Assembly: GCF_040182365.1 (NCBI RefSeq)
Contig: NZ_CP144460.1
Location: forward strand, 3,782,001-3,846,000
DNA: 64,000 nt
From: Xanthomonas sp. 10-10
Lineage (GTDB): Bacteria; Pseudomonadota; Gammaproteobacteria; Xanthomonadales; Xanthomonadaceae
Direction: 5' to 3'
Shown here piece by piece: positions 39,167 through 61,150 of this stretch. The notes under the pieces are model-generated. The model was not told the origin of the DNA. It did not search any database and saw only the letters and a program-made list of their open reading frames with translations. Both the position numbers and the translations under genes were made by a program. Position 1 is the first letter of the stretch, and the number at the start of each line of letters is the position of its first letter.

Positions 39167-39277
39167 CGCAGCCGGTGGGCGCCTGGGCAGCGAGAGTTGC
39201 ACGACCGTAGCGTGCTTCGTCGATCAAGCAGGCGACGACCGCCCTGGCATTCCTCGGGAACATGATCTCAGCCCCCC

Positions 39278-39622
<345 letters not shown>

Positions 39623-46029: not shown

Positions 46030-47766
46030 TCAGTCCTTGGTCACGCGATTGATCTCGGCCAGACTAGTCACTCCATGCGCGGCTTTGACCAACGCCGACT
46101 GACGTAAATCCCTGATGCCGATCTTCTGGGCGGCCTCAGCGATCTGCATCGCGTTGCCACCTTCCAGCACGATCGCACCGATCTCGTCGGTCATCGGCAT
46201 CACCTGATAGATACCGGTACGGCCCTTGTAGCCTTCGGTGCATTCGTCGCAGCCCACCGCTTCATACAGCTCGATACCGGCAGCGATCTGCGCCGGCGTG
46301 AAGCCTTCGGCCAACAACGCATGCTCGGGCAACACCGCCTTGCGCTTGCAGTTGTTGCATAGGCGGCGCGCCAGACGCTGCGCGATCACCAGGGTCACCG
46401 ACGAGGTGATGTTGTAGGGCGCGATGCCCATGTTCATCAAACGCGCGATGGTCTGTGGCGCATCGTTGGTATGCAGCGTCGACAGCACCATGTGACCGGT
46501 CTGCGCCGCCTTGATCGCAATCTCGGCCGTCTCCAGGTCGCGGATTTCGCCGACCATGATGATGTCCGGATCCTGGCGCAGGAACGAGCGCAGGGCCGCC
46601 GCAAAGGTCATGCCGCGTTTGTTGTTCTGCTGGACCTGGTTGACGCCGGGCAGGCGGATTTCCACCGGATCCTCGGCAGTTGAGATGTTGCGCGTCTCAT
46701 CGTTCAGGATGCCCAGCGCCGTATACAACGACACCGTCTTGCCCGAACCGGTTGGCCCCGTCACCAGCACCATGCCGTAAGGTTTGTGGATCGCATCCAG
46801 GAACAGCTTCTGCTGATCCGCTTCGTAGCCCAGTTTCTCGATCCCCAGCTTGGCCGCACTGCCGTCCAGGATACGCAACACCACCTTCTCGCCGAACAGG
46901 GTCGGCAAGGTGCTCACACGGAAGTCGATCTGCTTGGTCTTGGACAGGTTGAGCTTGATGCGCCCGTCCTGCGGCACCCGCTTCTCGGCGATATCCAGCT
47001 GCGACATCACCTTCAGACGCGCGGCGATGCGCTGGCTCAGCTTCACCGGTGCCTTGGCCACGTTCTTCAACAGCCCGTCGATGCGCAAGCGCACCCGGTA
47101 ATCGTCTTCGTATGGCTCGAAATGGATGTCGGAGGCTCCCCGCCGTATCGCATCCACCAGCACCTTATTGACGAACTTCACCACCGGCGTGTCGTCGCCT
47201 TTCGCATCGACCCCGGAATCCCCGCCGGCGCCCATGTCCTCGTCCCCGGACGAGACGTCCAGGTCTCCCATTTCTTCGTCATCGTCACCAAGTGACGCGC
47301 CAAAAGACGCATTACCTGCTTGCCACTGCTCCAAGGTTCGACGGATCTGATCCTCGTCAACCAGAATTGGCTCAACCACCAGGTTCGTATGGAACTTGAT
47401 GTCATCCAGGGCCCTAGTCTGTGTCGGATTGCTCACCCCCACAAATAACCGGTTACCGCGCTTGAACAGGGGCAGCACTTGAAACTTCTGCAGCAATTCT
47501 TCGCTAACCAACTTGATTGCATTCTGATTAGGATCGAACGATGACACATCAAGTAGCGGCATCCCGAACTCCACCGAGTTGGCAGCTGCTAGTTGCGAAG
47601 CGGTCACCAGCTTCTTCTCCGAGAACCATTGCGGCAACGGGACCTTGGCAGTAGCGGCCTGATCCATCGCAGCACGCGCCGCGCCTTCATCCAGAGCACC
47701 GTCCTGCACAAGCCGCCGGGCAATGCCCGTGATGCCAACCAAGTTGGCGGTGACGACGCTATTCAT
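46030..47766 (-). CDS. pilB: type IV pilus assembly ATPase PilB
   Basis: A 578-residue GspE/PilB-family motor: N-terminal MshEN-like domain (about 1-150), acidic linker (160-192, GDDDEE...GDEDMGAGGD), and ATPase with Walker A GPTGSGKT at 337-344, Asp box RQDPDIIMVGEIRD, and Walker B/His box STLHTNDA. A four-cysteine zinc motif (CNNCKRK...CDECTEG) follows. It powers pilus extension from the cytoplasm. In many species pilB adjoins pilC; here it is inverted and separated from pilC by the sugar genes and pilA. Confidence 0.96.
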   Translation of the reverse strand: MNSVVTANLVGITGIARRLVQDGALDEGAARAAMDQAATAKVPLPQWFSEKKLVTASQLAAANSVEFGMPLLDVSSFDPNQNAIKLVSEELLQKFQVLPLFKRGNRLFVGVSNPTQTRALDDIKFHTNLVVEPILVDEDQIRRTLEQWQAGNASFGASLGDDDEEMGDLDVSSGDEDMGAGGDSGVDAKGDDTPVVKFVNKVLVDAIRRGASDIHFEPYEDDYRVRLRIDGLLKNVAKAPVKLSQRIAARLKVMSQLDIAEKRVPQDGRIKLNLSKTKQIDFRVSTLPTLFGEKVVLRILDGSAAKLGIEKLGYEADQQKLFLDAIHKPYGMVLVTGPTGSGKTVSLYTALGILNDETRNISTAEDPVEIRLPGVNQVQQNNKRGMTFAAALRSFLRQDPDIIMVGEIRDLETAEIAIKAAQTGHMVLSTLHTNDAPQTIARLMNMGIAPYNITSSVTLVIAQRLARRLCNNCKRKAVLPEHALLAEGFTPAQIAAGIELYEAVGCDECTEGYKGRTGIYQVMPMTDEIGAIVLEGGNAMQIAEAAQKIGIRDLRQSALVKAAHGVTSLAEINRVTKD

Positions 47767-47906: not shown

Positions 47907-48506
47907 TTAGATGTCACGTACATAGAGTGTCTGCATTTCATGATGCGTGAGCCAATCGCCCAGCCAGCGTTGATCGAGCGGAAAATAGCGTGACAGTTCC
48001 AACCTGAAACCTGTCTCGGTCAAAAGCTCTGGGCGCGAAAGAAACCCGTTATCGATGAAGGTCAAATGTGTGGGATCGCTGCGAAACCCCGCCTTGCCCG
48101 GCACGATCACCAGCAATCGTTGCACGCCCAAACGACGGGCAGCCCGGGCCAACTTGCCAAAAATCTCCGCTGGCGCCTCAAGATGCTCCAGGACATGACT
48201 GACCACCATCGATTCGAACCGAACCGAATCAGGGACGACGCGCAACTGCCAGTCGTCAGCCAATCCGTCATAGTGGTCTACCGCGAGCCCCCGGCTGCGG
48301 CAGTACGCAACAGTTGCAACGTTGTACTCCAGCCCCATGGACCCCTCGGGCAACCGTCCAAGCAACTCCCCCACACCGCAGCCGAAATCCAGCGTCGGGC
48401 CGCGCAACAACGATTGCGCACTGCGCAGATAGAGCTTGCGCACCAGTTTCCTGAGCGGCGCACGATCGGTCTGATAGCTGGTGTAGCGCTCATCGAAGTC
48501 AGCCAC
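47907..48506 (-). CDS. class I SAM-dependent methyltransferase
   Basis: A 199-residue Rossmann methyltransferase with motif I LDFGCGVGELLGRLP, an acidic residue in LEYN for the ribose, and MVVSHVLEHLEAPAEI as motif IV. Its context (two glycosyltransferases and a small flippase-like protein) suggests it methylates a sugar or glycolipid. The start is set to the GTG at 48504-48506 (ADFDERYTSYQTDRAP), with GAGG upstream; it overlaps the GT2 stop by eight bases, so the genes are coupled. The C-terminal LSRYFPLDQRWLGDWLTHHEMQTLYV is unlike common families. Confidence 0.8.
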   Translation of the reverse strand: MADFDERYTSYQTDRAPLRKLVRKLYLRSAQSLLRGPTLDFGCGVGELLGRLPEGSMGLEYNVATVAYCRSRGLAVDHYDGLADDWQLRVVPDSVRFESMVVSHVLEHLEAPAEIFGKLARAARRLGVQRLLVIVPGKAGFRSDPTHLTFIDNGFLSRPELLTETGFRLELSRYFPLDQRWLGDWLTHHEMQTLYVRDI

Positions 48507-49539
48507 GCCGACCCTCACCCGGTTTTCTATTGACCAGCAGGTGCAGAGTCCGCGCAGGCACGGCAGCGATATCGTAGGCAAGGAAACCCAGGATGAGCTG
48601 GATCCCCACGATCACCTGCAGCGCTGCGAGCATCACGCTACCTGCAGAACTGAAATACCCCGTCTGCGCCGATTGCAGCCAGAAGAACACGCCGGTCGTC
48701 GCACCGGAGAACAGGAACAGCACGCCTGCAACCAACTCCAACGATGCCAGGGACAGGTCGCGCAGGAAATAGTTGTAGAAGATCCGCTTTCCGAAGTTGC
48801 GTAGATGTCGGATGGCGAAATCCAGGACGATCTTGCGCACACTCAGGTTACTGACTTCGTCGCCATACCGTGCATCCATCGGCACATCGACCACCACTGC
48901 CCGGATGGTATTCAAGCGAAACAGCATGTCGCTCTCGAAAAAATACCGGCGACTGATCTTGTCCAGCGGCATGCGCGCCACCACGCTCGCATGCACGGCC
49001 GTATAGCCATTGGTCGGATCGAAAATGTCCCAGTACCCGGAAGACAGCTTGGTCAGAAACGACAATGCGGCATTGCCGATAATCCGCATCTTTGGCATCC
49101 GACCGATCTGCGCCAGGTCGTAGAAACGGTTGCCCTTGGTGTAATCGGCCTCGCCTCGAACGATCGGCCCGATCAGCTCCGACAACGCATCCGGATCCAT
49201 CTGACCGTCGCCGTCCATCTTCACGATGATCTCCATGCCATCGGCAACCGCGGCCCGATAGCCAGCGATCGTGGCCCCCCCGACGCCCAGGTTGGAGGGA
49301 TTGCGACACACCACCACCCGTGGATCCGCGCACCGCTCCTCCACCCAGGTGCCGCTGGCGTCGGGGCAATGATCGTCGACCACATAGATGCGTTCGACCT
49401 GCGCGGGAATGGAAGCCAGCACATCGAGCACCTTGCTCCTGACCCGGTAGCAGGGAATGACAACCGCCAGGCGCACCTCGAACCTCGCCTCGTCGGTCCT
49501 GGGCCACGGATTGGTGGCGTGCTGCACTGCAGTCTGCAT
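48499..49539 (-). CDS. GT2 glycosyltransferase, polyprenyl-phosphate sugar synthase type
   Basis: A 346-residue enzyme. GT-A domain: VRLAVVIPCYRVRSKVLDVLASIP, IYVVDDHCPDASG, the donor/metal motif KMDGDGQMDP, and FDPTNGYTAVHASV with RRYFFESDML. The C-terminal third has two membrane helices (SLELVAGVLFLFSGATTGVFFWL, SVMLAALQVIVGIQLILGFLAYDI). That layout is typical of DPM1/ArnC-like enzymes that load a sugar on undecaprenyl phosphate. The start ATG at 49537-49539 has GGGGGTGA just upstream and follows the previous stop by two bases. The product may be the lipid-linked donor for pilin modification (inference). Confidence 0.85.
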   Translation of the reverse strand: MQTAVQHATNPWPRTDEARFEVRLAVVIPCYRVRSKVLDVLASIPAQVERIYVVDDHCPDASGTWVEERCADPRVVVCRNPSNLGVGGATIAGYRAAVADGMEIIVKMDGDGQMDPDALSELIGPIVRGEADYTKGNRFYDLAQIGRMPKMRIIGNAALSFLTKLSSGYWDIFDPTNGYTAVHASVVARMPLDKISRRYFFESDMLFRLNTIRAVVVDVPMDARYGDEVSNLSVRKIVLDFAIRHLRNFGKRIFYNYFLRDLSLASLELVAGVLFLFSGATTGVFFWLQSAQTGYFSSAGSVMLAALQVIVGIQLILGFLAYDIAAVPARTLHLLVNRKPGEGRRG

Positions 49540-49541
49540 GG

Positions 49542-50336
49542 TCACCCCCCGGCGCTGTAGGAGAGACGATAGACGCGGGCCAACAACGCAGCAACCGTAC
49601 GCGGCCAGAAGCGTTGAAACATCATCAGATCCTCGGCGGCTCGCATACCCGACAGCACCCCGTCGCTGGTAGTACTTGCGGCATGCACACGATGCAGCAT
49701 GGATACCTTGCGCACACGCACGAACGCCCCTTGCTGATCGGCTGCGCGCGTCCACGCGTCCCAATCCAGGTTCAACCTAAGATCTTCCCGGAAAACGCCC
49801 CAGCCGGCGTCCTTGCGAACGGTCACCGACGGGCATGGCACCGCGCACCCGAACATCAACAGACGCCGCTTCGAAGCCCTTGAGCGAATCACGGATGTCC
49901 CCAGAAAACCCATCTCCTGCAAGATCCACTTGACCGCCAACATCGGCGTCATTATGCGCCGCTGCTCGCCCGCCAGTTCGCCGTAACCGGTCATGACCAA
50001 CACGGCACCAGGCTCCTGCGCGATGGCCGCCTTGGTCTCGCCTGCGAAGTCGGGCAGATAGACATCGTCCTGATGCGCCAACGTGACCCAGCGTGCAGAC
50101 GCGGTGCCCAGCGCCAGATTCCAGTCGTGACCGATGCCCCGCGGCGCATCGGCATGCACCACCAACCTGGCGCCATAGCGCGCCGCCAGTCCCGCGATTT
50201 GCGGGCTGGGGGTGGACGTGCTGATCAAGATCGGAGATGGCGACGACTGCGCTGCCAACGAGCGCAGACACGCGTCCAGATAAGGCGAATCGCCGTATGC
50301 GGGCACTACGAACGCATGGTCGACCGTGCCAGGCAT
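49542..50336 (-). CDS. GT2 glycosyltransferase
   Basis: A 264-residue soluble GT-A enzyme: HAFVVPAYGDSPYLDACLRSLAAQ, ILISTSTPS, GIGHDWNLALGTASARWVTLAHQDDVYLP (with QDD in place of DxD), and LRLNLDWDAWTRAADQQGAFVRV as an acceptor-site segment. It lacks membrane helices, unlike its neighbour. Probably adds a further sugar or modifies a nucleotide-linked one; substrate unknown. Start at 50336 (MPGTVDHAFVV) lies four bases after the stop of the EamA-like gene. Confidence 0.82.
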   Translation of the reverse strand: MPGTVDHAFVVPAYGDSPYLDACLRSLAAQSSPSPILISTSTPSPQIAGLAARYGARLVVHADAPRGIGHDWNLALGTASARWVTLAHQDDVYLPDFAGETKAAIAQEPGAVLVMTGYGELAGEQRRIMTPMLAVKWILQEMGFLGTSVIRSRASKRRLLMFGCAVPCPSVTVRKDAGWGVFREDLRLNLDWDAWTRAADQQGAFVRVRKVSMLHRVHAASTTSDGVLSGMRAAEDLMMFQRFWPRTVAALLARVYRLSYSAGG

Positions 50337-50340
50337 CGCC

Positions 50341-50724
50341 TTAGCCTGCCTGCGCGGTAAGCGAGACCAGCGCAACCCCGGTGGAGATCAGCACCAACCC
50401 AACCCATTGCCACGGCGTCAATCGCTCCCCGTAGAGCAACCAGCTGAGCAGAGCCAGCAGGAGATAGAAGAAGGCGCCGGAAATCGCAAACGCAACACCC
50501 AGCTTGACATGGCGAACCACCAGCATCCAGACCAGAAACCCGATGCCCTGCACCGCCACCGCAGTGATCACACTGGGCGACAGCACCGCCGCCAAAAACC
50601 AGTCGCGTCCCGTGGGCGCTGGCGTCCGCGCAGCGATTTGGGTCAACCCATGCTTTACCAGCAGCTGGCTTCCGATAGTCGAACACGTCACGAAAAAAAT
50701 TAGAGGTATTTCACGTATCATCAC
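50341..50724 (-). CDS. small EamA/SMR-like four-helix membrane protein
   Basis: 127 residues with four transmembrane helices (about 7-27, 45-70, 77-97, 103-122) and little else, resembling the paired ArnE/ArnF flippase subunits and other short DMT-superfamily proteins. LVKHGLTQIA, FLVWMLVVRHVKLGVAFAISGAFFYLLLALLSWLLYGERL and QWVGLVLISTGVAL match that pattern. In this operon it could flip the polyprenyl-phosphate sugar made by the ArnC-like enzyme. Two consecutive ATGs (50724, 50721) are possible starts. It is the first gene of the cassette, running away from pilA. Confidence 0.75.
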   Translation of the reverse strand: MMIREIPLIFFVTCSTIGSQLLVKHGLTQIAARTPAPTGRDWFLAAVLSPSVITAVAVQGIGFLVWMLVVRHVKLGVAFAISGAFFYLLLALLSWLLYGERLTPWQWVGLVLISTGVALVSLTAQAG

Positions 50725-50835
50725 ATTGCCGCGTTCGGGATGGGGCCTGACCGCGCATCGAATGCCTGCGTGTCGTCGAGAACAGCATAAGTGCTGCGAA
50801 CCGACCGCACCACTTGCGCAAACGGGCCGGAAAGA

Positions 50836-50870
50836 GTGACAAATTTGGTCACCCTCTGACCCATTTGGTC
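50836..50870 (+). promoter_or_regulatory. candidate PilR upstream binding region
   Basis: GTGAC (50836-50840) and GTCAC (50848-50852) form a dyad, and ATTTGGTC occurs at 50843-50850 and again at 50863-50870, exactly 20 bp (about two helical turns) apart. The region lies about 70-115 bp upstream of the sigma-54 promoter, where enhancer-binding proteins act. Assignment to PilR is inferred from position. Confidence 0.5.
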
Positions 50871-50936
50871 GCCGCGCAGAGCTGCAGCTCCGGTCGAGTC
50901 CGCCTGAGCGCTTGTTAAACGGTAAGCTGCTGGAGT

Positions 50937-50951
50937 TGGCACGTCCTTTGC
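50937..50951 (+). promoter_or_regulatory. sigma-54 promoter of pilA
   Basis: TGGCACGTCCTTTGC matches the -24/-12 consensus TGGCAC-N5-TTGC, with the GG and GC exactly ten bases apart. The predicted start is about 50963, giving a leader of roughly 100 nt before pilA. It is the expected target of PilR. Confidence 0.95.
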
Positions 50952-51065
50952 TTTGAACAACACGTGGTGGTCACGCACAGCCACGGCCCGATCCCTGCCA
51001 ATCAGGGCAACGGTCACCGAAGTGCTCTATCCAGTCCCAATCCAATCCAAGCCAAGGCCGAATCA

Positions 51066-51482
51066 ATGAAAAAGAATATGCAGCAGGGCTTCACCCTGAT
51101 CGAACTGATGATCGTGATCGCCATCATCGCCATCCTGGCCGCCATCGCGCTGCCGGCCTATTCCGACTACACCAAGAAGGCCAAGGTCTCGGAAGTCGTT
51201 CTTGCTGCTTCGGCGGGTCGCACCACCATCTCTGAGTATGTAGCCGCCAACAATGGCTCCTGCCCGACGTCTAGCGTTATTGACACCCAGTCGTCTGCCT
51301 ATGTGAATGGCCTCAGCAACAGCGGATGTGTCATTACTGCTGTCAGCCGCGTCACAGGCGCTACTGGCAATATCGTTCTGACCGGCACCGTTAACTCCAC
51401 CACTTACCAGGTTGACTGGGTCTGCGGCGGTACTGTTGACACCAAGTTCCGTCCGGGTTCCTGCCAGGGCACCAAGCAGTAA
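51066..51482 (+). CDS. pilA: type IV major pilin PilA
   Basis: A 138-residue type IVa pilin. Leader MKKNMQQG, cleaved by PilD between G8 and F9; then [35 protein letters not shown] with the conserved Glu at +5 and the hydrophobic helix. Four later cysteines (CPTSS..., SGCVIT, WVCGG, GSCQG) can form two disulfides, the last being the C-terminal D-loop. Ser/Thr-rich patches ([20 protein letters not shown]) could take O-linked sugar. The ATG at 51066 fits the leader; an upstream in-frame start would bury it. Driven by the sigma-54 promoter and ended by a strong terminator. Confidence 0.97.
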
Positions 51483-51500
51483 TCTACTCTGCTCAAAAAT

Positions 51501-51531
51501 AAAAAACCCCGGGCTCCCGGGGTTTTTTTTT
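51501..51531 (+). terminator. Rho-independent terminator of pilA
   Basis: AAAAAACCCCGG, short GCTC loop, CCGGGG then nine T residues. It starts about 18 nt after the pilA stop. The A-run on the left could make it bidirectional, but no minus-strand gene ends here. Confidence 0.95.
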
Positions 51532-51551
51532 AACAATTAAACGGACAGAAA

Positions 51552-53543
51552 ATGCGGCCCTTATCATCCAAGCCCTCGCCAACGAGCCTGCTTGTCATTG
51601 CGACGGTAATTTGCATCGTCCTTTACTGGCCCGGGCTTGACGGCCCATTTTTAATGGATGATGAGCAGCATCTTGCTTTAGTTCAGTCTTGGCATAACGG
51701 AGCAATCGGCTTTTGGGACATGGCTGCCGGCAACGGCAATTGGATTTTGCATAGATCACTAGCCATGATGACGCTAGCCATCAACGTAGTCATAGGGGGA
51801 GAAACAAGCTTTTCTCTGAAGACCGGGAATCTAGTACTGCATCTGATCTGCGGATGGGTTGCCTATGCCACCTTCCGCCGAATGCTTGCGCTGGATAAAA
51901 ATCTGAGCAAGCACTCATCATTGATTTCCGCGTTGATTTGCTCCATCTGGCTGCTTCACCCACTAAACGTGAGCACAGTACTTTACGTTGTGCAACGCAT
52001 GAGTCAGATCGCTACAATTTTCCCACTTCTTGGTGTATGGCTTTATATTACGACCCGACAAAAGATGCTTAAAAAAAGCATTGCACCGGTCACAGCATTT
52101 TCACTCCTTTTCCTCGGGCTTCCAGCACTTACCCTCCTGGGAATCCAGGGAAAGCAAAGCGCCATAGTCCTTGTAGGACTTTGCCTAGTAGTTGAGCTAG
52201 GGTGGCTTAAACAACCAAGGGAGTGGGATGGCTTACTAAAAATATTTTACACAACTTTCGTAGCCCTGCCGATAATTATTCTTCCAGCACTTGTGTACTG
52301 GCAATGGAATACCCTCCAATCAGCCATGCTTGAATGGGGCATGACACCAATCGAGCGCCTAATCAGCGAACCCCGCGCAATATGTCATTATATTCGAATG
52401 CTCATAATGCCGTACTCACCAGCAATGGGCATCTATACAGACGATTTCGCTATATCTCATAGCCTTTCAAGTCCAGCGACTACTACTCCCGCGATAATAG
52501 GGCTACTTGCGGTCAGCGCTGCAGCTATATCCTGCCGAAAACGGCTCCCAGGTTTTTTTGTTGGCTGGTTTTGGTTCTTGGTCGCACATTCGGTAGAGGC
52601 CAGCATTGTTCCAATCGAGCTTTATTATGAACATCGCAACTATTTGCCTCAGCTTGGGCTTTGGTTAATGCTTATCGACCTAATTGCCGCCGCACTTCGC
52701 AAGCTTAGCCAATACGGAACCCGATCAAACGCGATCGGCTGGACGTTTGCATTAGGTTTTATTGGCGTAATTTGCGCACAAACCTGGTCGAGAGCATTGG
52801 TTTGGCAAACTCAATTAGGCATCAGCCTGGCTGCAATTGATAGCCACCCCAATTCCGCAAGGGCCCATATTGCCTTCGGCTTTGCAGCCATGCAAAGCGG
52901 GCTCGTCGGAGACACGTATAATGCTTTCCAGCGCCTAGCCTCCAATTCCGACCCAAGAATTTCCGGCATCGGTAAAATTGAATTAACCATACTAAACTGT
53001 CACCTCCACAAGGACAGTGATCCATCCTTATTGGAGGCCGCAGCACAGAATTCCCCACGCTTTATAAATCCCGTCCTGCCATATGCGATATCAAATTTAC
53101 TTGAAATCCGCGAACGAGACGGTTGTGGCCGGATTACACCAGCCCTGCTCGCCAATACTATTGTGAGCATTTTGAATCAGGCAACAGACCACAGAGAAGC
53201 ATCGCAATCAAAATGGACGCTTCGATACAATGCTGCACTTGCCTATTATCAAGCTGGCGATTGGCAGCACGCGCTTGAACAGACTCGTCTGGCTTGGCCG
53301 AATAGTCCAGACCCTACGATTGCCTTACTGCATGTTAGGTTACTACTCAAGGCCGGAGACATTGAAGGTGCCAAGAAGACTTTTTGGGACCTAATGCGTC
53401 GCGCCGGTTATACTGAAATCAAACAACTGCCCACAGCAACCCGCGGCACAGCACTGCGCGCGGTCCTCAAAGAAATAAATGAGTACGCCGCTCATAATTC
53501 AGTAGCCGGGCTGGACGAATCAGGCACTAGTCTCGCGCAGTGA
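51552..53543 (+). CDS. multispanning TMTC-like protein with C-terminal TPR region, candidate pilin glycosyltransferase
   Basis: A 663-residue protein of clearly lower GC than its surroundings. Residues 1-420 contain about ten or more membrane helices; a DD motif (GPFLMDDEQH) follows helix 1 as in GT-C enzymes. IWLLHPLNVSTVLYVVQRMSQIATIFPLLGVWLY resembles the membrane part of bacterial TMTC-like proteins. Residues about 440-640 are TPR-like helices (RYNAALAYYQAGDWQHALEQTRLAWPNS). It sits between pilA and pilC, where other bacteria carry pilin glycosyltransferases (TfpO/TfpW). I infer that it moves sugar from a lipid carrier to pilin. A pilus assembly or accessory role is also possible. Confidence 0.7.
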   Translation: MRPLSSKPSPTSLLVIATVICIVLYWPGLDGPFLMDDEQHLALVQSWHNGAIGFWDMAAGNGNWILHRSLAMMTLAINVVIGGETSFSLKTGNLVLHLICGWVAYATFRRMLALDKNLSKHSSLISALICSIWLLHPLNVSTVLYVVQRMSQIATIFPLLGVWLYITTRQKMLKKSIAPVTAFSLLFLGLPALTLLGIQGKQSAIVLVGLCLVVELGWLKQPREWDGLLKIFYTTFVALPIIILPALVYWQWNTLQSAMLEWGMTPIERLISEPRAICHYIRMLIMPYSPAMGIYTDDFAISHSLSSPATTTPAIIGLLAVSAAAISCRKRLPGFFVGWFWFLVAHSVEASIVPIELYYEHRNYLPQLGLWLMLIDLIAAALRKLSQYGTRSNAIGWTFALGFIGVICAQTWSRALVWQTQLGISLAAIDSHPNSARAHIAFGFAAMQSGLVGDTYNAFQRLASNSDPRISGIGKIELTILNCHLHKDSDPSLLEAAAQNSPRFINPVLPYAISNLLEIRERDGCGRITPALLANTIVSILNQATDHREASQSKWTLRYNAALAYYQAGDWQHALEQTRLAWPNSPDPTIALLHVRLLLKAGDIEGAKKTFWDLMRRAGYTEIKQLPTATRGTALRAVLKEINEYAAHNSVAGLDESGTSLAQ

Positions 53544-53668: not shown

Positions 53669-54928
53669 TTGGCTGCGATCACTACGGCGAAAAAACCGCC
53701 GACCACGACGAACCGTATGAATCAGATGGCAACCTTTGTCTGGGAGGGGACAGACAAGCGCGGCGTCAAGATGAAGGGGGATGAGCTCGCCCGCAATGCC
53801 AACATGCTGCGTGCCGAACTTCGGCGGCGCGGCATCACGCCGACTGTGGTCAAGACCAAGCCCAAGCCGCTGTTCGGCGCCGCCGGCAAGCCTATCAAGC
53901 CCAAGGACATCGCGTTCTTCAGTCGGCAGATGGCGACCATGATGAAATCGGGCGTGCCGATTGTGGGATCGCTCGAAATCATCGGCGAGGGCGCCAAGAA
54001 CCCGCGCATGAAGAAGATGGTCGGCGAAATCCGCACCGACATCGAGGGCGGCCTGTCGCTCAACGAGGCCATCAGCAAGCATCCGGTGCAATTCGACGAG
54101 CTGTACCGCAACCTGGTCAAAGCGGGCGAAAGTGCCGGCGTTCTCGATACTGTGCTGGAAACGGTGGCGACATATAAGGAAAACATCGAAGCCCTGAAGG
54201 GCAAGATCAAGAAGGCGCTGTTCTATCCGGCGATGGTGATGGCCGTTGCGCTGATCGTCAGTTCCATCCTACTCATCTGGGTTGTACCGCAATTCGAAAC
54301 CGTCTTCTCCAGCTTTGGCGCGGAGTTGCCGGCGTTTACCCAGATGATCGTGAATTGTTCACGTTTCATGGTGTCGTGGTGGCTGCCGATGTTGCTGATC
54401 GCAATCGGCTCGGTCGTCGGGCTAGTGATGGGCTACAAGCGCTCGCCGAAAATGCAGCATCTGTTCGACCGGCTGATCTTGAAGGTGCCGGTCATCGGCA
54501 AGATCATGCACGACAGTGCCATTGCCCGGTTCGCGCGTACCACGGCGGTGACCTTCAAGGCTGGTGTTCCGTTGGTGGAGGCGCTGAGCATCGTGGCCGG
54601 CGCCACCGGCAACAAGGTCTACGAAGAAGCGGTGCTGCGCATGCGCGACGACGTGTCGGTCGGCTACCCGGTCAACCTGTCGATGAAGCAGGTCAACCTG
54701 TTTCCGCATATGGTGATCCAGATGACCGCCATCGGCGAAGAGGCCGGCGCATTGGATACCATGCTGTTCAAAGTGGCCGATTACTTCGAGCAGGACGTGA
54801 ACAATGCGGTAGATGCCTTGAGCAGCCTGCTGGAGCCGATGATCATGATCTTCATCGGTGTCGTTGTCGGCGGTATGGTGATCGGCATGTATCTGCCCAT
54901 CTTCAAGTTGGGCGCAGTCGTTGGATAA
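53669..54928 (+). CDS. pilC: type IV pilus inner-membrane platform protein PilC
   Basis: A 419-residue GspF/PilC-family protein with two homologous cytoplasmic domains (T2SSF, about 85-205 and 290-410) and three membrane helices (about 190-210, 240-260, 390-412). FSRQMATMMKSGVPIVGSLEII and FARTTAVTFKAGVPLVEALSIVAG are the paired signatures, FKLGAVVG the usual end. It couples PilB to pilus growth. The start is TTG at 53669 with GGAGATAGG upstream; a downstream ATG in MATFVWEGTD is a shorter option. Confidence 0.95.
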   Translation: MAAITTAKKPPTTTNRMNQMATFVWEGTDKRGVKMKGDELARNANMLRAELRRRGITPTVVKTKPKPLFGAAGKPIKPKDIAFFSRQMATMMKSGVPIVGSLEIIGEGAKNPRMKKMVGEIRTDIEGGLSLNEAISKHPVQFDELYRNLVKAGESAGVLDTVLETVATYKENIEALKGKIKKALFYPAMVMAVALIVSSILLIWVVPQFETVFSSFGAELPAFTQMIVNCSRFMVSWWLPMLLIAIGSVVGLVMGYKRSPKMQHLFDRLILKVPVIGKIMHDSAIARFARTTAVTFKAGVPLVEALSIVAGATGNKVYEEAVLRMRDDVSVGYPVNLSMKQVNLFPHMVIQMTAIGEEAGALDTMLFKVADYFEQDVNNAVDALSSLLEPMIMIFIGVVVGGMVIGMYLPIFKLGAVVG

Positions 54929-56453: not shown

Positions 56454-56507
56454 ACTTCTAAAAAACTATAACCCACTTGCAATACCAGCGAACGGAGTCA
56501 GATTCCG

Positions 56508-56539
56508 GCTGCCAGACAAAGAGGCTGCCAGACAAAGAG
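56508..56539. repeat. 16-bp perfect tandem duplication
   Basis: GGCTGCCAGACAAAGA occurs twice head to tail (56508-56523 and 56524-56539) in the AT-richer spacer between coaE and the RHS gene, near the left edge of the putative accessory insertion. Confidence 0.9.
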
Positions 56540-56686
56540 CAAGAACGGCTTGCAGCACTTCCGACCAACGGCTGGATTAAGAGTCTGCCTACTCGATTGA
56601 GAGCATTTCTTTTTCGGTATGCTTTGCCCACACATGCACCGCTACCGCGGCTTGCCAAAGAACACACGACACGGAGAGTTGAGGCG

Positions 56687-59600
56687 ATGAAGGATCTTGA
56701 GCGTTGGATGCACGAAAAAAGTCCTCGCGGCACTTTGTTTGGACTTCTGCTTGCACTCGTTGCAGCGCTTTCTTATTTGGTCCCAATGCAAAAGGCTTAC
56801 GCTGGAGACTCAGCTCTTTGCAATGCGGGCACTAGCCTATGTGACCAAGGGCAGGCATATCTCAATGCTTTGAGGGAAGGCAACGAAGCGATTTGCATCT
56901 CTGGAGGCGTAAATATTCACAGTGGAAAAGTGAACGATCGAACATACACCCAGCGTTACGAAGCAGTCGTCGAATGCTATCGCGCATTTGATAACTTCAC
57001 TTGGGTTTCCTATTTAGACAGTAGCTTTTACGCCTCCACCTGCACCGCTCGCCCATCCATTGCACCTGCAGCCGGCAGCACCGGCAAAGTCTGCCAACAA
57101 GGCTGCGAGTACACCGTCGGCACCAACGGCAGCCAGCCAGTCGCCACGCCCAACGGCGCAGTCTGCGCATCTCCTCCACCAATCGATCCCGGCAAGAACA
57201 ACGGCTGTTGCGACGCCACCACCGGGCCGACCACGGCTGGCAACCCCGCTAACGTGTTCACCGGGGCCAAACTCGAAACCGCAGTCGATTACCGCGCCCC
57301 GGTTGGACATCTGGAGTTCGTACGCTATTACAGCAGCGCAGCTGGCTTGCAACCCGTTACCGCACTCGGTTCCACATGGCGGCATAGCTACGCACGTGCA
57401 TTGACGGTGGCCGATGCAGCAACCGTGGTCCTGACCCGTCCCAGCGGCAATTTCTACACCTTCAAGAAGTCTGCCAACGGGACCTGGACGCCCGACTGGG
57501 ACGTGCGCGAAGTGCTGACCGAACTCCTCGACAACGGCGTGCGGACCGGCTGGCAAGTCACCACTGCAGACGATATGCAGGAAACCTTCGGCCCCGACGG
57601 CAAACTGACCGGCATGGCCTATCCGGATGGCGAGCGACTGACGTTGACCTATGCCGGCGCGCAATTGCAGTCGGTGCGGGACCTACGCGGCCGGCAGATC
57701 GTATTTACCTACCAAGCCGGCAGGATCGTCCAGGCCACGCTCCCCGATGGCTCAATCCTCGGTTATGGCTATGACACCCAAGGACGCTTGAGCTCGGTGG
57801 CCTTGCAGGCGGCAGGGGCATCGGCCTCCTCAATGGTGGCCAGCTATGGATATGGCGATTCACGTTTTCCGGATGCGCTGACGACACATCGCGATGCACA
57901 AGGCCAGGTCTATGCGTCATGGAGCTACGATGCGCAAAAACGCGTGACCCGCAGCGTGCATGGCAATCCAGCAGGCGCGATCGACCAATTCACGATTGCC
58001 TATGCAGGTACCGCCTCTACCGTCACAACGCCATCAGAAAACACCATCACGCGCACTGGCCTTTCCAAGCTCGGCCAGGCCAAGGTGGCAGCTGTCAAAG
58101 GGCTGTGCCCGGAATGCACAGGTGCGTCGTTCCAGTCCCGCAGCTATGACGGCAATGGCTATCCCGATCTGGAGGTCGATTTTGCCGGCGTCTCCACTGA
58201 CTGGAACTACAACCATCGCGGCCTCCTGACCAGCAGGATCGATGCCGCCAACGATACGGCCGGCCGCAAGCGCACGATGCAAACCGACTGGCACGCCAGC
58301 TTGCGTCAACCTGTAGACCGCCGCAGCTATGACGCCGCCAATGCGCTGGTGGCCAGGACAACCTGGACCTACAACGCCAGAGGCCAGGCACTGACCGTCT
58401 CGCAACTCGACCCCGCCGGCGCTGCAGCGCGTGTCGCCACGCGGCGCTATTGCGAAGATGCCGATGTCGCTGCAGGCAGCTGTCCGCTAGCAGGTGCGCT
58501 GCTGTCCAGCGATGGCCCGCGCACCGATATCGCCGACAGCACGAGCTACAGCTACTACCTCAGCGATGATGCGAGCTGCGCCGCAACACCTACGACCTGT
58601 GCGCATCGCAAAGGCGACTTGTGGAAAGTCACAAGCGCCCTAGGCCGCGTCACCGAATACCTGGCCTACGACGGCGCCGGCCGCCCGCTGTCCATCAAGG
58701 ACGCCAACGGCATCGTCACCGACTACAGCTACCACCCGCGCGGTTGGCTGACCGCCACCAAGGTGCGCGGGGCCGATGCGTCCAGCGAGGCCGATGACCG
58801 CATCACCCGCATCGACTACTGGCCCACCGGCCTGGTCAAGCAGGTCACCCAGCCCGATGGCGCGTTCACCGCCTTCACCTACGATGCCGCGCATCGGCTG
58901 ACCGATATCACCGATAACGTGGGCAACACCATCCACTACACCCTGGACAATGCCGGCAATCGCGTCAAGGAAGACACCAAGGACGCGGCCGGCACGTTGA
59001 AGCGCACGCTTTCGCGCGTCTACAACGAGCTCGGCCAACTCAAGACGCAGGCCACCGCCGTGGGCGATCCCACCGACTTCGGCTACGACGCCAACGGCAA
59101 CCCCACCACCGTGACCGATGCGCTGGCAACCGCAACCCAGAGCGAATACGACCCGCTCAACCGGCTCTCGCGCACGCTGCAGGATGTGGCCGGCATCAAG
59201 GCGGGCACCACCTTCGACTACGACGCGCTGGACAACCTCACAAAGGTCACCGACCCCAAGGGCCTGGATACCAAATACGAGTACAACGGCTTTGGCGATC
59301 TGGTGAAGCTCACCAGCCCGGACACCGGCGTCACCAGCTACACCTACGACAGCGCCGGCAACCGCGCCACCCAGACCGACGCGCGCGGCAATACCACCGC
59401 CTACGGCTACGACGCGCTCAATCGCCTGACCAAGGTCACCTACCCCACCAGCGGCCTCAACGTCAGCTACACCCACGACGTGACGCAGACGGCCTGCGCG
59501 AACGGGGAGACCTTCTCCATCGGCCGCCTGACCAGGATGCAGGACGGCGGCGCCATCACCCAGTACTGCTACAACCGCTTCGGCGATCTGGTGCGCAAGG

Positions 59601-61150
59601 TGCAGACCAGCAACGGCAAGGCGCTGGTACTGCGCTACGACTACACCGTCGGCGGCCAGTTGCGCCGCATGACCTATCCCGACGGTGCAGTGGTCGATTA
59701 TGTGCGCAACTCGCAAGGCCAGACCACCGAGGTCGGCGTGACCCCGGCCGGCGGCAGCCGCCAGGTGCTGCTGGGCAACGCCAGCTACTACCCGTTCGGT
59801 CCGGCTGCCGGCTGGACCTATGGCAATGGCCGAATCCTCGCCCGCCAGTACGATCTGGACTACCGCCCGCAGGCGATTCAGGACACCCGCCCGGGTGGGC
59901 TGGACGTGGGCTTCGGCTTCGACCCGGCCGGCAACCTCACCGCACTGACCCCAGCCGGCAATCCCACGCCCGAAATCGGCCTGGGCTACGATGCCCTGGG
60001 CCGCCTGACCGGCCTCAAGGACGGCCGCACCGGTACCCTGATCGACGGCTACAGCTACGACGCCACCGGCAACCGCCTCAGCGCCAAGGTCGGCACTGCC
60101 ACGCAGGCCTACACCTACCCGGCCGACAGCCACCGCCTCAGTGCGGTGGCCGGCGTGGCCCGCAGTTACGACGCTACCGGCAACACCACCGCCATCGGCG
60201 GCACCGCGCGCCAATACACCTACGACACCACCGGCCGCATGACCCAGGCCCGCCGCGCCGGCGCGGTGACCATGAACTACCGCTACAACGGCCGTGGCGA
60301 GCAGGTGCGCCGCTTCTTAGGCACCACCAACACCTACACGCTCTATGACGAAGCAGGCCATTGGCTAGGCGACTACGACAGCAACGGCGCGCCCAAGCAG
60401 CAGGCGATCTGGCTGGACGACCTACCGGTCGGCCTGCTAGCCAATGCCAACACGCTGTACTACATCGAACCCGACCACCTGGGCAGCCCACGCGTGGTGA
60501 TCGACCCCACCCGCGATGTGGCGGTGTGGACGTGGAGCTTGAAGGGCGAAGCCTTCGGCAACACCGCGCCAAATCAGGATCCTGATGGGGATGGTGCGGC
60601 GGTGATATTGGATATGCGGTTTCCGGGGCAGCGGTACGACGCTGCGAGTGGATTCAATCAAAACTTCTTCAGAGATTACGAATCTTATACTGGCCGCTAT
60701 GTCGAATCAGACCCTACTGGCCTTATTGGCGGCATTAGTACGTATTCCTATGTAAGCTCTGATCCCTACAATTTCGTCGACATATACGGACTTGAAATTG
60801 TTTTACCGTGGCTGGCACCCACCCTAGCAAGACCAGCGGTGCTACCACGCCCTATCGCTACGCCGCTCGATTCCGCAGCCCCAATTCCCTGGAGTGGACA
60901 AGAAGATCCGAATGGCGAGTATTGCCGAAGCCTTGCGAGGAAAATTGAGAATACTAGCCAAGAAATTTATGGAAAGAGGTACCCTGATCTACTTTCAAAT
61001 CCCGCCGGCCTCCCCTGGCGGATCGGGCCCGGCGAAGCACTAAAAGACACGGTTAGGGGTCATGAAAAACTACTAAATAGAAGGCTTGGCGAACTTCGAA
61101 AGTTGGAAAATGAATATTCTCGCAAATGCCAAAGATGGGCATGCCTGTGA
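56687..61150 (+). CDS. RHS-repeat polymorphic toxin-like protein
   Basis: A 1487-residue exported RHS protein. The N-terminus has a membrane/signal segment (TLFGLLLALVAALSYLVPMQKAYAG, about 16-40), then a cysteine-bearing region (40-190), an entry segment NPANVFTGAKLETAVDYRAPVGHLEFVRYYSS, and some 1100 residues of YD repeats (for example YDANGNPTTVTDA, YDPLNRL). The core ends IEPDHLGSPRVV ... FPGQRYDAASGFNQNFFRDYESYTGRYVESDPTGLIGG ... DIYGL. The last about 118 residues (60794-61147) form a variable tip, unrecognised, rich in Lys/Arg/Glu. GC is low at both ends and high in the middle. The ATG at 56687 has GAGG just upstream; the frame opens earlier at 56477. Likely a contact-dependent toxin with the next gene as immunity. 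Confidence 0.85.
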   Translation: MKDLERWMHEKSPRGTLFGLLLALVAALSYLVPMQKAYAGDSALCNAGTSLCDQGQAYLNALREGNEAICISGGVNIHSGKVNDRTYTQRYEAVVECYRAFDNFTWVSYLDSSFYASTCTARPSIAPAAGSTGKVCQQGCEYTVGTNGSQPVATPNGAVCASPPPIDPGKNNGCCDATTGPTTAGNPANVFTGAKLETAVDYRAPVGHLEFVRYYSSAAGLQPVTALGSTWRHSYARALTVADAATVVLTRPSGNFYTFKKSANGTWTPDWDVREVLTELLDNGVRTGWQVTTADDMQETFGPDGKLTGMAYPDGERLTLTYAGAQLQSVRDLRGRQIVFTYQAGRIVQATLPDGSILGYGYDTQGRLSSVALQAAGASASSMVASYGYGDSRFPDALTTHRDAQGQVYASWSYDAQKRVTRSVHGNPAGAIDQFTIAYAGTASTVTTPSENTITRTGLSKLGQAKVAAVKGLCPECTGASFQSRSYDGNGYPDLEVDFAGVSTDWNYNHRGLLTSRIDAANDTAGRKRTMQTDWHASLRQPVDRRSYDAANALVARTTWTYNARGQALTVSQLDPAGAAARVATRRYCEDADVAAGSCPLAGALLSSDGPRTDIADSTSYSYYLSDDASCAATPTTCAHRKGDLWKVTSALGRVTEYLAYDGAGRPLSIKDANGIVTDYSYHPRGWLTATKVRGADASSEADDRITRIDYWPTGLVKQVTQPDGAFTAFTYDAAHRLTDITDNVGNTIHYTLDNAGNRVKEDTKDAAGTLKRTLSRVYNELGQLKTQATAVGDPTDFGYDANGNPTTVTDALATATQSEYDPLNRLSRTLQDVAGIKAGTTFDYDALDNLTKVTDPKGLDTKYEYNGFGDLVKLTSPDTGVTSYTYDSAGNRATQTDARGNTTAYGYDALNRLTKVTYPTSGLNVSYTHDVTQTACANGETFSIGRLTRMQDGGAITQYCYNRFGDLVRKVQTSNGKALVLRYDYTVGGQLRRMTYPDGAVVDYVRNSQGQTTEVGVTPAGGSRQVLLGNASYYPFGPAAGWTYGNGRILARQYDLDYRPQAIQDTRPGGLDVGFGFDPAGNLTALTPAGNPTPEIGLGYDALGRLTGLKDGRTGTLIDGYSYDATGNRLSAKVGTATQAYTYPADSHRLSAVAGVARSYDATGNTTAIGGTARQYTYDTTGRMTQARRAGAVTMNYRYNGRGEQVRRFLGTTNTYTLYDEAGHWLGDYDSNGAPKQQAIWLDDLPVGLLANANTLYYIEPDHLGSPRVVIDPTRDVAVWTWSLKGEAFGNTAPNQDPDGDGAAVILDMRFPGQRYDAASGFNQNFFRDYESYTGRYVESDPTGLIGGISTYSYVSSDPYNFVDIYGLEIVLPWLAPTLARPAVLPRPIATPLDSAAPIPWSGQEDPNGEYCRSLARKIENTSQEIYGKRYPDLLSNPAGLPWRIGPGEALKDTVRGHEKLLNRRLGELRKLENEYSRKCQRWACL

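Follow-up and report, generated by a model that had tools for sequence, protein, structure and literature searches.

Why does a protein of a design known from animal cells sit directly behind the gene for the main type IV pilin of a Xanthomonas strain? The question arises in a 64,000-nucleotide stretch of Xanthomonas sp. 10-10 (contig NZ_CP144460.1, positions 3,782,001 to 3,846,000; hereafter the window, with coordinates counted from its first letter). Here the slot between pilB and pilC holds the pilin gene pilA, a gene for a 663-residue protein on the same strand and, in one close series on the minus strand, genes for an SMR/EamA-like protein, a soluble family 2 glycosyltransferase (GT2), a membrane GT2, and a methyltransferase (Table 1). 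Open reading frames (ORFs) and Pfam families agree on this gene set, as a first-pass annotation made from the sequence alone had claimed. The 663-residue protein looks like a dedicated sugar-attaching enzyme. We propose, with a probability of about 0.7, that the locus is an exchangeable pilin-modification cassette and that this protein is a pilin-dedicated O-glycosyltransferase using a lipid-phosphate-linked sugar. Related genes stand beside pilin genes in many proteobacteria, which suggests an overlooked class of pilus-decorating enzymes.

The 663-residue protein is predicted to combine a GT-C fold with a TPR domain

The first-pass annotation had described a multispanning DD-motif protein with C-terminal TPRs and had proposed structure prediction as a check. 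The predicted structure is confident (pLDDT 93.7), and on this model we confidently assign the protein a GT-C fold followed by a C-terminal TPR domain. The model displays the multispanning fold with an acidic motif in the first outer loop that is expected of the GT-C superfamily, and because 11 transmembrane (TM) helices were counted on it, the TPR domain would lie on the periplasmic side. Both described features held up: D36-D37 is invariant in an alignment of 74 sequences of the protein's family, and the TPR domain matches TPR proteins by profile, with structure-comparison rows spanning residues 465 to 650.

All residues invariant among the 74 diverse members fall in the GT-C part and its linker, and none in the TPR part. 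This distribution, the GT-C fold, and neighbors that resemble donor synthases argue against a protein that is noncatalytic or mainly an assembly factor like TfpY, in which the TPR domain would help pilin folding or assembly and glycosyl transfer would be vestigial. That the TfpX/Y/Z accessory proteins occupy the same position, and that protein binding is what TPR domains do, speaks for such a role, which we nevertheless regard as very unlikely.

Among the closest known designs is that of the animal O-mannosyltransferases TMTC1-4. Conserved residues of the 663-residue protein sit, as judged by eye, in the loops bearing animal TMTC motifs M1, M2, M3, M4, M5, and M7. Both designs have a GT-C domain of 11 TM helices and, at the C terminus, TPRs that would face outward. 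By eye they also agree on a DD pair in the first loop, Arg in the second, Lys in the third, and Asp in the loop joining TM7 to TM8, with an Arg-containing motif between TM9 and TM10 (EHRNY in the 663-residue protein). The protein differs in being bacterial, in lacking a detectable DUF1736, in several changed motif letters, in its linked candidate acceptor (a pilin rather than cadherin), and in its donor, presumably an undecaprenyl-phosphate-linked sugar. Pfam TMTC_DUF1736 is absent from the families matched by 44 members at an E value of 0.01, and a search for it placed 0 of 24 genomes over the cutoff. We therefore call the protein TMTC-like, a name that stops short of formal TMTC membership. 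Passages of one paper (PMC7801869) report that full-length TMTC-like proteins occur in prokaryotes and, in 2021, called them typically not well characterized. Full-text literature searches, with most subscription papers outside their coverage, found no paper linking TMTC-like proteins with pilin.

The 12 Pfam families matched by 44 members include no O-antigen ligase/WaaL-like domain, and given this missing domain and the different fold, we set aside a WaaL-type O-oligosaccharyltransferase. TfpW, the Pseudomonas group IV pilin arabinosyltransferase, belongs to the GT-C class. We liken the 663-residue protein to it by description, as a GT-C accessory protein of a pilin cassette; TfpW differs in adding D-arabinofuranose homopolymers. 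Passages of PMC11841053 describe TfpW as a pilin glycosyltransferase encoded by a cassette accessory gene, and those of PMC12645811 ascribe WaaL-like domains to all of TfpO/PilO, TfpM, PglS, and PglL. The genes for TfpO/PilO, TfpM, and PglS share with the 663-residue gene a tight linkage to the pilin substrate; as far as those passages go, their products differ in carrying WaaL-like, O-antigen-ligase domains as opposed to the OST/PMT/ArnT-type GT-C fold predicted here. Four further membrane proteins that accompany the donor genes or other pilins showed no homology to the family by hhalign (probabilities below 4).

TMTC-like genes are linked to pilin genes in many proteobacteria

Pilins were detected by a prepilin-motif pattern, a looser form of which, used in later counts, recovered the one pilin missed earlier. 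Of the 297 genomes sampled from the taxonomic family, 152 contain a TMTC-like match. We inspected 70 loci from 69 of these 152 genomes, the best scoring, down to an E value of about 2e-87 (the other 83 fall outside the count). A prepilin-type gene lay within 1.2 kb of a copy in 69 loci, and the 70th (G272, L228) has one as well under the looser pattern. In some family loci pilin and TMTC-like copies alternate; in the Lysobacter-type loci L127 (5443-12803), L128, and L115, up to three transferase copies do so.

Relatives extend well beyond Xanthomonas: besides those in the family, matches were present in 112 of the 369 genomes sampled from the class and in 41 of 398 from the phylum, and the GTDB genome set yielded more. 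With 1.5-kb flanks, a pilin was in reach in 22 of 30 class loci, the Xanthomonas sp. 10-10 locus counted in. The named loci are the best 79 of 508 relatives in the GTDB set, found with a profile built from pilin-adjacent sequences. They come from diverse proteobacteria. In 67 of the 79 a pilin gene lies no more than 1.5 kb away, in most cases immediately upstream; this count takes in two loci whose pilin is divergent and within 0.4 kb (L158 and L184) and one whose pilin is downstream (L135). Where enough sequence was available, a same-strand pilin ended in the first upstream kilobase in 54 of 67 loci and in the following ones in 4 of 62, 1 of 62, 0 of 52, and 0 of 50.

Adjacency varied with score. 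In a set that included 22 genomes picked for weak or odd matches, and in which some loci show one gene twice, a pilin lay within the 1.5-kb flanks for 18 of 27 relatives above 350 bits and 2 of 11 at 260 to 350 bits. Below 160 bits the count was 6 of 21, and fragments or a broken copy account for three of these six. A quick tree with hand-assigned pilin labels recovered one supported clade with a pilin in 30 of 37 rows (Shimodaira-Hasegawa-like approximate likelihood ratio test, 99) and a second small pilin-linked group; the pilin label changed nine times, fewer than in any of 500 shuffles. Together, the score bins and the tree tie pilin linkage chiefly to one clade rather than to GT-C/TPR proteins at large, and even within that clade it is not universal.

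The order of pilin, terminator, and accessory gene is that of pilin accessory cassettes and is present in this locus. Terminator-like hairpins occupy 54 of 65 gaps between pilin and TMTC-like gene in the named loci and 30 of 74 such gaps in the family loci, compared with 0 in shuffled gaps and 1 of 110 and 1 of 96 control stretches inside the gene. According to passages of PMC11841053, the accessory genes of Pseudomonas pilins are arranged in this way too, and X. campestris pv. vesicatoria is noted as a further case.

Neighboring genes resemble a lipid-linked sugar pathway

The best NCBIfam matches of the membrane GT2 are AglJ (2.1e-15) and PpgS, and those of the 127-residue protein are the SMR, ArnE, and ArnF models, all below curated cutoffs. 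Close homologues have about two and about four TM helices, respectively, which agrees with the membrane-helix GT2 and four-helix flippase-like protein originally proposed. The claim of an ArnC-like GT2 within a complete pathway stands insofar as the neighbors resemble polyprenyl-phosphate-sugar synthases; the transfer of sugar to pilin is a step that we only infer. The donor of the 663-residue protein is presumably polyprenyl-phosphate linked. Archaeal AglJ-AglG/I-AglP-AglB N-glycosylation likewise uses a monophosphate lipid carrier, GT2s, and a methyltransferase; it differs in its oligosaccharyltransferase (OST), which acts on Asn sequons, as opposed to a PMT/TMTC-like enzyme presumably acting on pilin Ser/Thr. 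Gtr-type systems (GtrA-GtrB-Gtr; GT136) share a lipid-phosphate-sugar synthase, a flippase, and a GT-C transferase, and differ in modifying polysaccharides, as passages of PMC11127046 have it, and in lacking the extra soluble GT2 and methyltransferase found here. The same passages present three-component systems made up of a lipid-linked donor, a flippase, and a GT-C protein, and mention elaborate Xanthomonas cases.

Homologues of the locus's membrane GT2 occur in 29 of the 79 named loci, as the next gene downstream in 15 and in a divergent cassette in 7. We also tallied 145 downstream ORFs from 78 loci, at most two per locus and some possibly spurious (L119 was left out as a near-copy of L120). 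Among the matches listed (25 of 72 families) were 40 to Glycos_transf_2, 17 to GT1, 10 to methyltransferases, 10 to LPG_synthase_TM, 6 to DegT, and 4 to epimerases. At 1e-15, an E-value threshold and not a curated cutoff, 38 of the 145 matched the model for AglJ, and 35 matched one for dolichyl-phosphate hexose transferases.

The soluble GT2 occurs in 19 of the 297 family genomes, beside a close SMR protein and membrane GT2 in 15 of them and within about 1.5 kb of a pilin in 10. Six of the other nine were inspected (G204, G161, and G068 fall outside the inspection): in one, the cluster also includes a pilin and a GT87-like membrane protein; in three, a DUF2142 protein lies nearby (at a distance of 3.4 kb in one case); and in two, a DUF7657 protein does. 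Both DUF families we take to be GT-C-like. The donor genes thus appear to serve a variety of large membrane proteins, which would leave the TMTC-like protein as the pilin-specific piece. In locus L309 (2056-6682, G177), inside a pilR-to-pilB cluster, a pilin is followed by a GT87-like membrane protein and a soluble-GT2 homologue, which puts a further transferase family at the pilin position.

These data bear on an alternative in which the 663-residue protein modifies pilin but draws its donor from another part of the genome, and the cassette on the opposite strand serves a different glycan and is a mere neighbor. Five of the six inspected soluble-GT2 loci with no pilin inside 1.5-kb flanks lie near DUF2142 or DUF7657 proteins, and 50 of the 79 named loci show no homologue of the membrane GT2 in the available flanking DNA, as this alternative would have it. 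Yet the cassette adjoins a pilin and TMTC-like gene in Xanthomonas, Pseudoxanthomonas, and Lysobacter, it is present in all five genus genomes with a close copy of the 663-residue protein, and AglJ-like GT2s recur downstream of that protein's relatives. We consider a separate donor unlikely. A possible lack of a general PglL in the genus was dropped as uninformative: a PF11846 search gave 0 of 35 genomes, and its controls were also negative.

Several observations weigh against a pilin-dedicated glycosyltransferase with its own donor cassette. The soluble GT2 has no pilin within about 1.5 kb in 9 of 19 family genomes, and the donor genes are therefore not pilin exclusive. Short flanks contained no pilin for 18 of 38 relatives of at least 260 bits (9 of the 27 above 350 bits, including one whose locus meets a contig edge, plus 9 of the 11 at 260 to 350 bits), and the named loci favor the pilin-linked clade because the search profile was made from pilin-adjacent sequences. 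Motif letters deviate from those of TMTC (KQS at M4 for KE(T/Q), DD for DW, EHRNY for ERxxY). Foldseek alone returned 0 PDB matches at an E value of 0.001 or less for the model; since TPR proteins filled its best rows and ArnT appeared only at rank 43 (E value, 0.034), we set it aside as fold evidence. Pilins of same-type loci are only a little richer in Ser/Thr than the others (0.263, n = 5, versus 0.221, n = 26), a difference too small to count as evidence of glycosylation. The first-pass annotation, which held that occurrence of the cassette away from pilA would speak against it, was right in its core and is partly supported. The tie to pilA is seen for the 663-residue protein at every inspected family locus, and is looser for the donor genes, which do occur away from pilin, and for some relatives outside the family with no pilin in reach. 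Compared with what had been supposed, the donor cassette is tied less strictly to pilin genes and the transferase has a far wider distribution.

The pilB-pilC slot holds several, probably exchangeable cassettes

We compared the pilB-pilC span in 35 Xanthomonas-type genomes and found at least five cassette types. The full cassette of this locus recurs in 5 of the 35, and its gene arrangement is for that reason not due to chance. One genome has pilA, a second pilin, and a 608-residue TMTC-like protein (28 to 30% identical) with a methyltransferase, an LPG-TM-like protein, a GT4-like gene, and a GT2; another has pilA, a distant 618-residue TMTC-like protein, and another pilin. Five genomes combine pilA with genes for an EptA-like protein of sulfatase fold and a spermine-synthase-like protein, which in one genome are broken up into several ORFs. 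In three, pilA comes with an unrelated membrane protein of 653 residues, a second, small membrane protein, a flavoprotein resembling amino oxidases, and an epimerase. Pilins stand alone in 17 genomes, so that an ordinary pilin-only or two-pilin slot describes these and not the Xanthomonas sp. 10-10 locus; two slots are split over contigs, and one genome gave no match. A genome of the same species (G006) has one pilin in the slot.

Two of these types merit a separate remark. The EptA-type slots (L017, L028, L033, L037, and L041, in G004, G021, G032, G007, and G005; the genes of L028 are split) also contain a membrane protein of ~209 residues, and the EptA-like protein after pilA resembles pilin phosphoform transferases, possibly for a phosphoethanolamine-type pilin modification. 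In L023, L026, and L038 (G026, G009, and G030), the 653-residue protein has no Pfam match, the small membrane protein has 153 residues, the epimerase is of the NAD type, and the cassette may furnish an unusual sugar to pilin.

Across the 33 matched genomes from the rest of the genus, two of them partial matches, PilB is 93 to 98% identical. PilC is 92 to 97% identical in the four other same-type genomes versus 79 to 84% in the 29 others matched (some partially). As PilC identity tracks cassette type while PilB identity does not, the cassette seems to be transferred as a block that takes in pilC. For X. vasicola, passages of PMC4235730 describe replacement of pilA and pilC by transfer and name no transferase for that locus.

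A slot that accepts unrelated cassettes could be a mere hotspot for surface genes, with the 663-residue protein glycosylating another surface acceptor such as O-antigen or a minor pilin. O-antigen is often modified by GT-C enzymes, and the downstream nucleotide-sugar genes (DegT and epimerases, above) could serve any glycan. Against this stand the linkage to pilin genes across many genera and loci, beyond the pilB-pilC slot, and the alternation of pilin and transferase copies in L127 and L128; we hold such an acceptor to be highly improbable.

Table 1. Features of the pilB-pilC region (window coordinates)
Feature	Position	Strand	Basis
pilB, left edge of variable slot	46030..47766	-	ORF call, genus comparison
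MetW-like S-adenosylmethionine-dependent methyltransferase	47907..48581	-	Pfam MetW 5e-8
Membrane GT2, AglJ/PpgS-like	48499..49764 (ORF); coding start near 49540	-	Pfam GT2 1.7e-20
Soluble GT2	49542..50336 (ORF to 50375, ATG at 50336)	-	Pfam GT2 5.1e-7
SMR/EamA-like membrane protein, 127 residues	50341..50724	-	Pfam EamA 9.6e-9
Sigma-54-like promoter TGGCACG-N4-TTGC, upstream of pilA	50937..50951	+	Motif match
pilA, type IVa major pilin, 138 residues	51066..51482	+	Pilin 3.7e-12, N_methyl 4.1e-11
Hairpin and T-run between pilA and 663-residue gene	51501..51531	+	Hairpin scan
TMTC-like protein, 663 residues (GT-C 1-444, TPR about 461-650)	51552..53543	+	Model, profile
pilC, right edge of slot	53672..54928	+	ORF call, genus comparison

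The start of the membrane GT2 was set by comparison with a 343-residue orthologue, and the promoter is called sigma-54-like for its resemblance to the sigma-54 consensus. The hairpin has a T-run on both sides, and one hairpin listing puts it on the minus strand. The GC content of the 663-residue gene (0.46 to 0.50, versus about 0.6 in its surroundings) is low, as first described; its GC3 is 0.49, compared with 0.56 to 0.76 in three orthologues, and low GC is thus not general.

Elsewhere in the window, a 1557-residue ORF directly after coaE (56477-61150, plus strand) carries RHS/YD-type repeats recognized by eye. A long CTG/CAG-type simple repeat at 39200-39620, with poly-Leu and poly-Gln ORFs on opposite strands, adjoins genes resembling sucD and sucC.

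A proposed pathway and its implications

In the pathway that we propose, the membrane GT2, a predicted polyprenyl-phosphate-sugar synthase, would load undecaprenyl phosphate with a monosaccharide. The soluble GT2 may attach a second sugar, the MetW-like enzyme may methylate the lipid-linked glycan, and the SMR-like protein, a predicted flippase, would turn the monophosphate-linked donor to the periplasm. There the TPR domain would recognize or position PilA, the presumed acceptor, and the GT-C protein, a predicted pilin O-glycosyltransferase, would move the glycan to at least one Ser/Thr of the pilin, either ahead of assembly or in the course of it. Because of the terminator behind pilA, the enzyme would be made in much smaller amounts than its abundant substrate, an effect already proposed for the pilin accessory genes of Pseudomonas. 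A joint swap of pilin, transferase, and donor genes would alter the pilus surface, plausibly under phage pressure. Beyond this locus, the evidence somewhat favors a widespread proteobacterial class of pilin-dedicated, TMTC-like GT-C O-glycosyltransferases with a periplasmic TPR recognition domain and modular lipid-linked sugar cassettes, exchanged together with the pilin.

To our knowledge, few pilin glycosyltransferases have been described: TfpO/PilO, TfpM, PglS, TfpW, and the enzyme of general specificity, PglL. Another class, if real, would extend pilin glycosylation to many organisms for which no report of it is known to us, including about half of the family genomes. It would give bacterial TMTC homologues, whose role becomes directly testable, their first acceptor, and animal TMTCs may then trace back to enzymes acting on surface proteins or have an ancestor in common with them. 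It could yield a new tool for protein glycoengineering. For Xanthomonas, it would help to explain the strong variability of pilA and pilC, and pili so decorated could escape pilus-binding phages.

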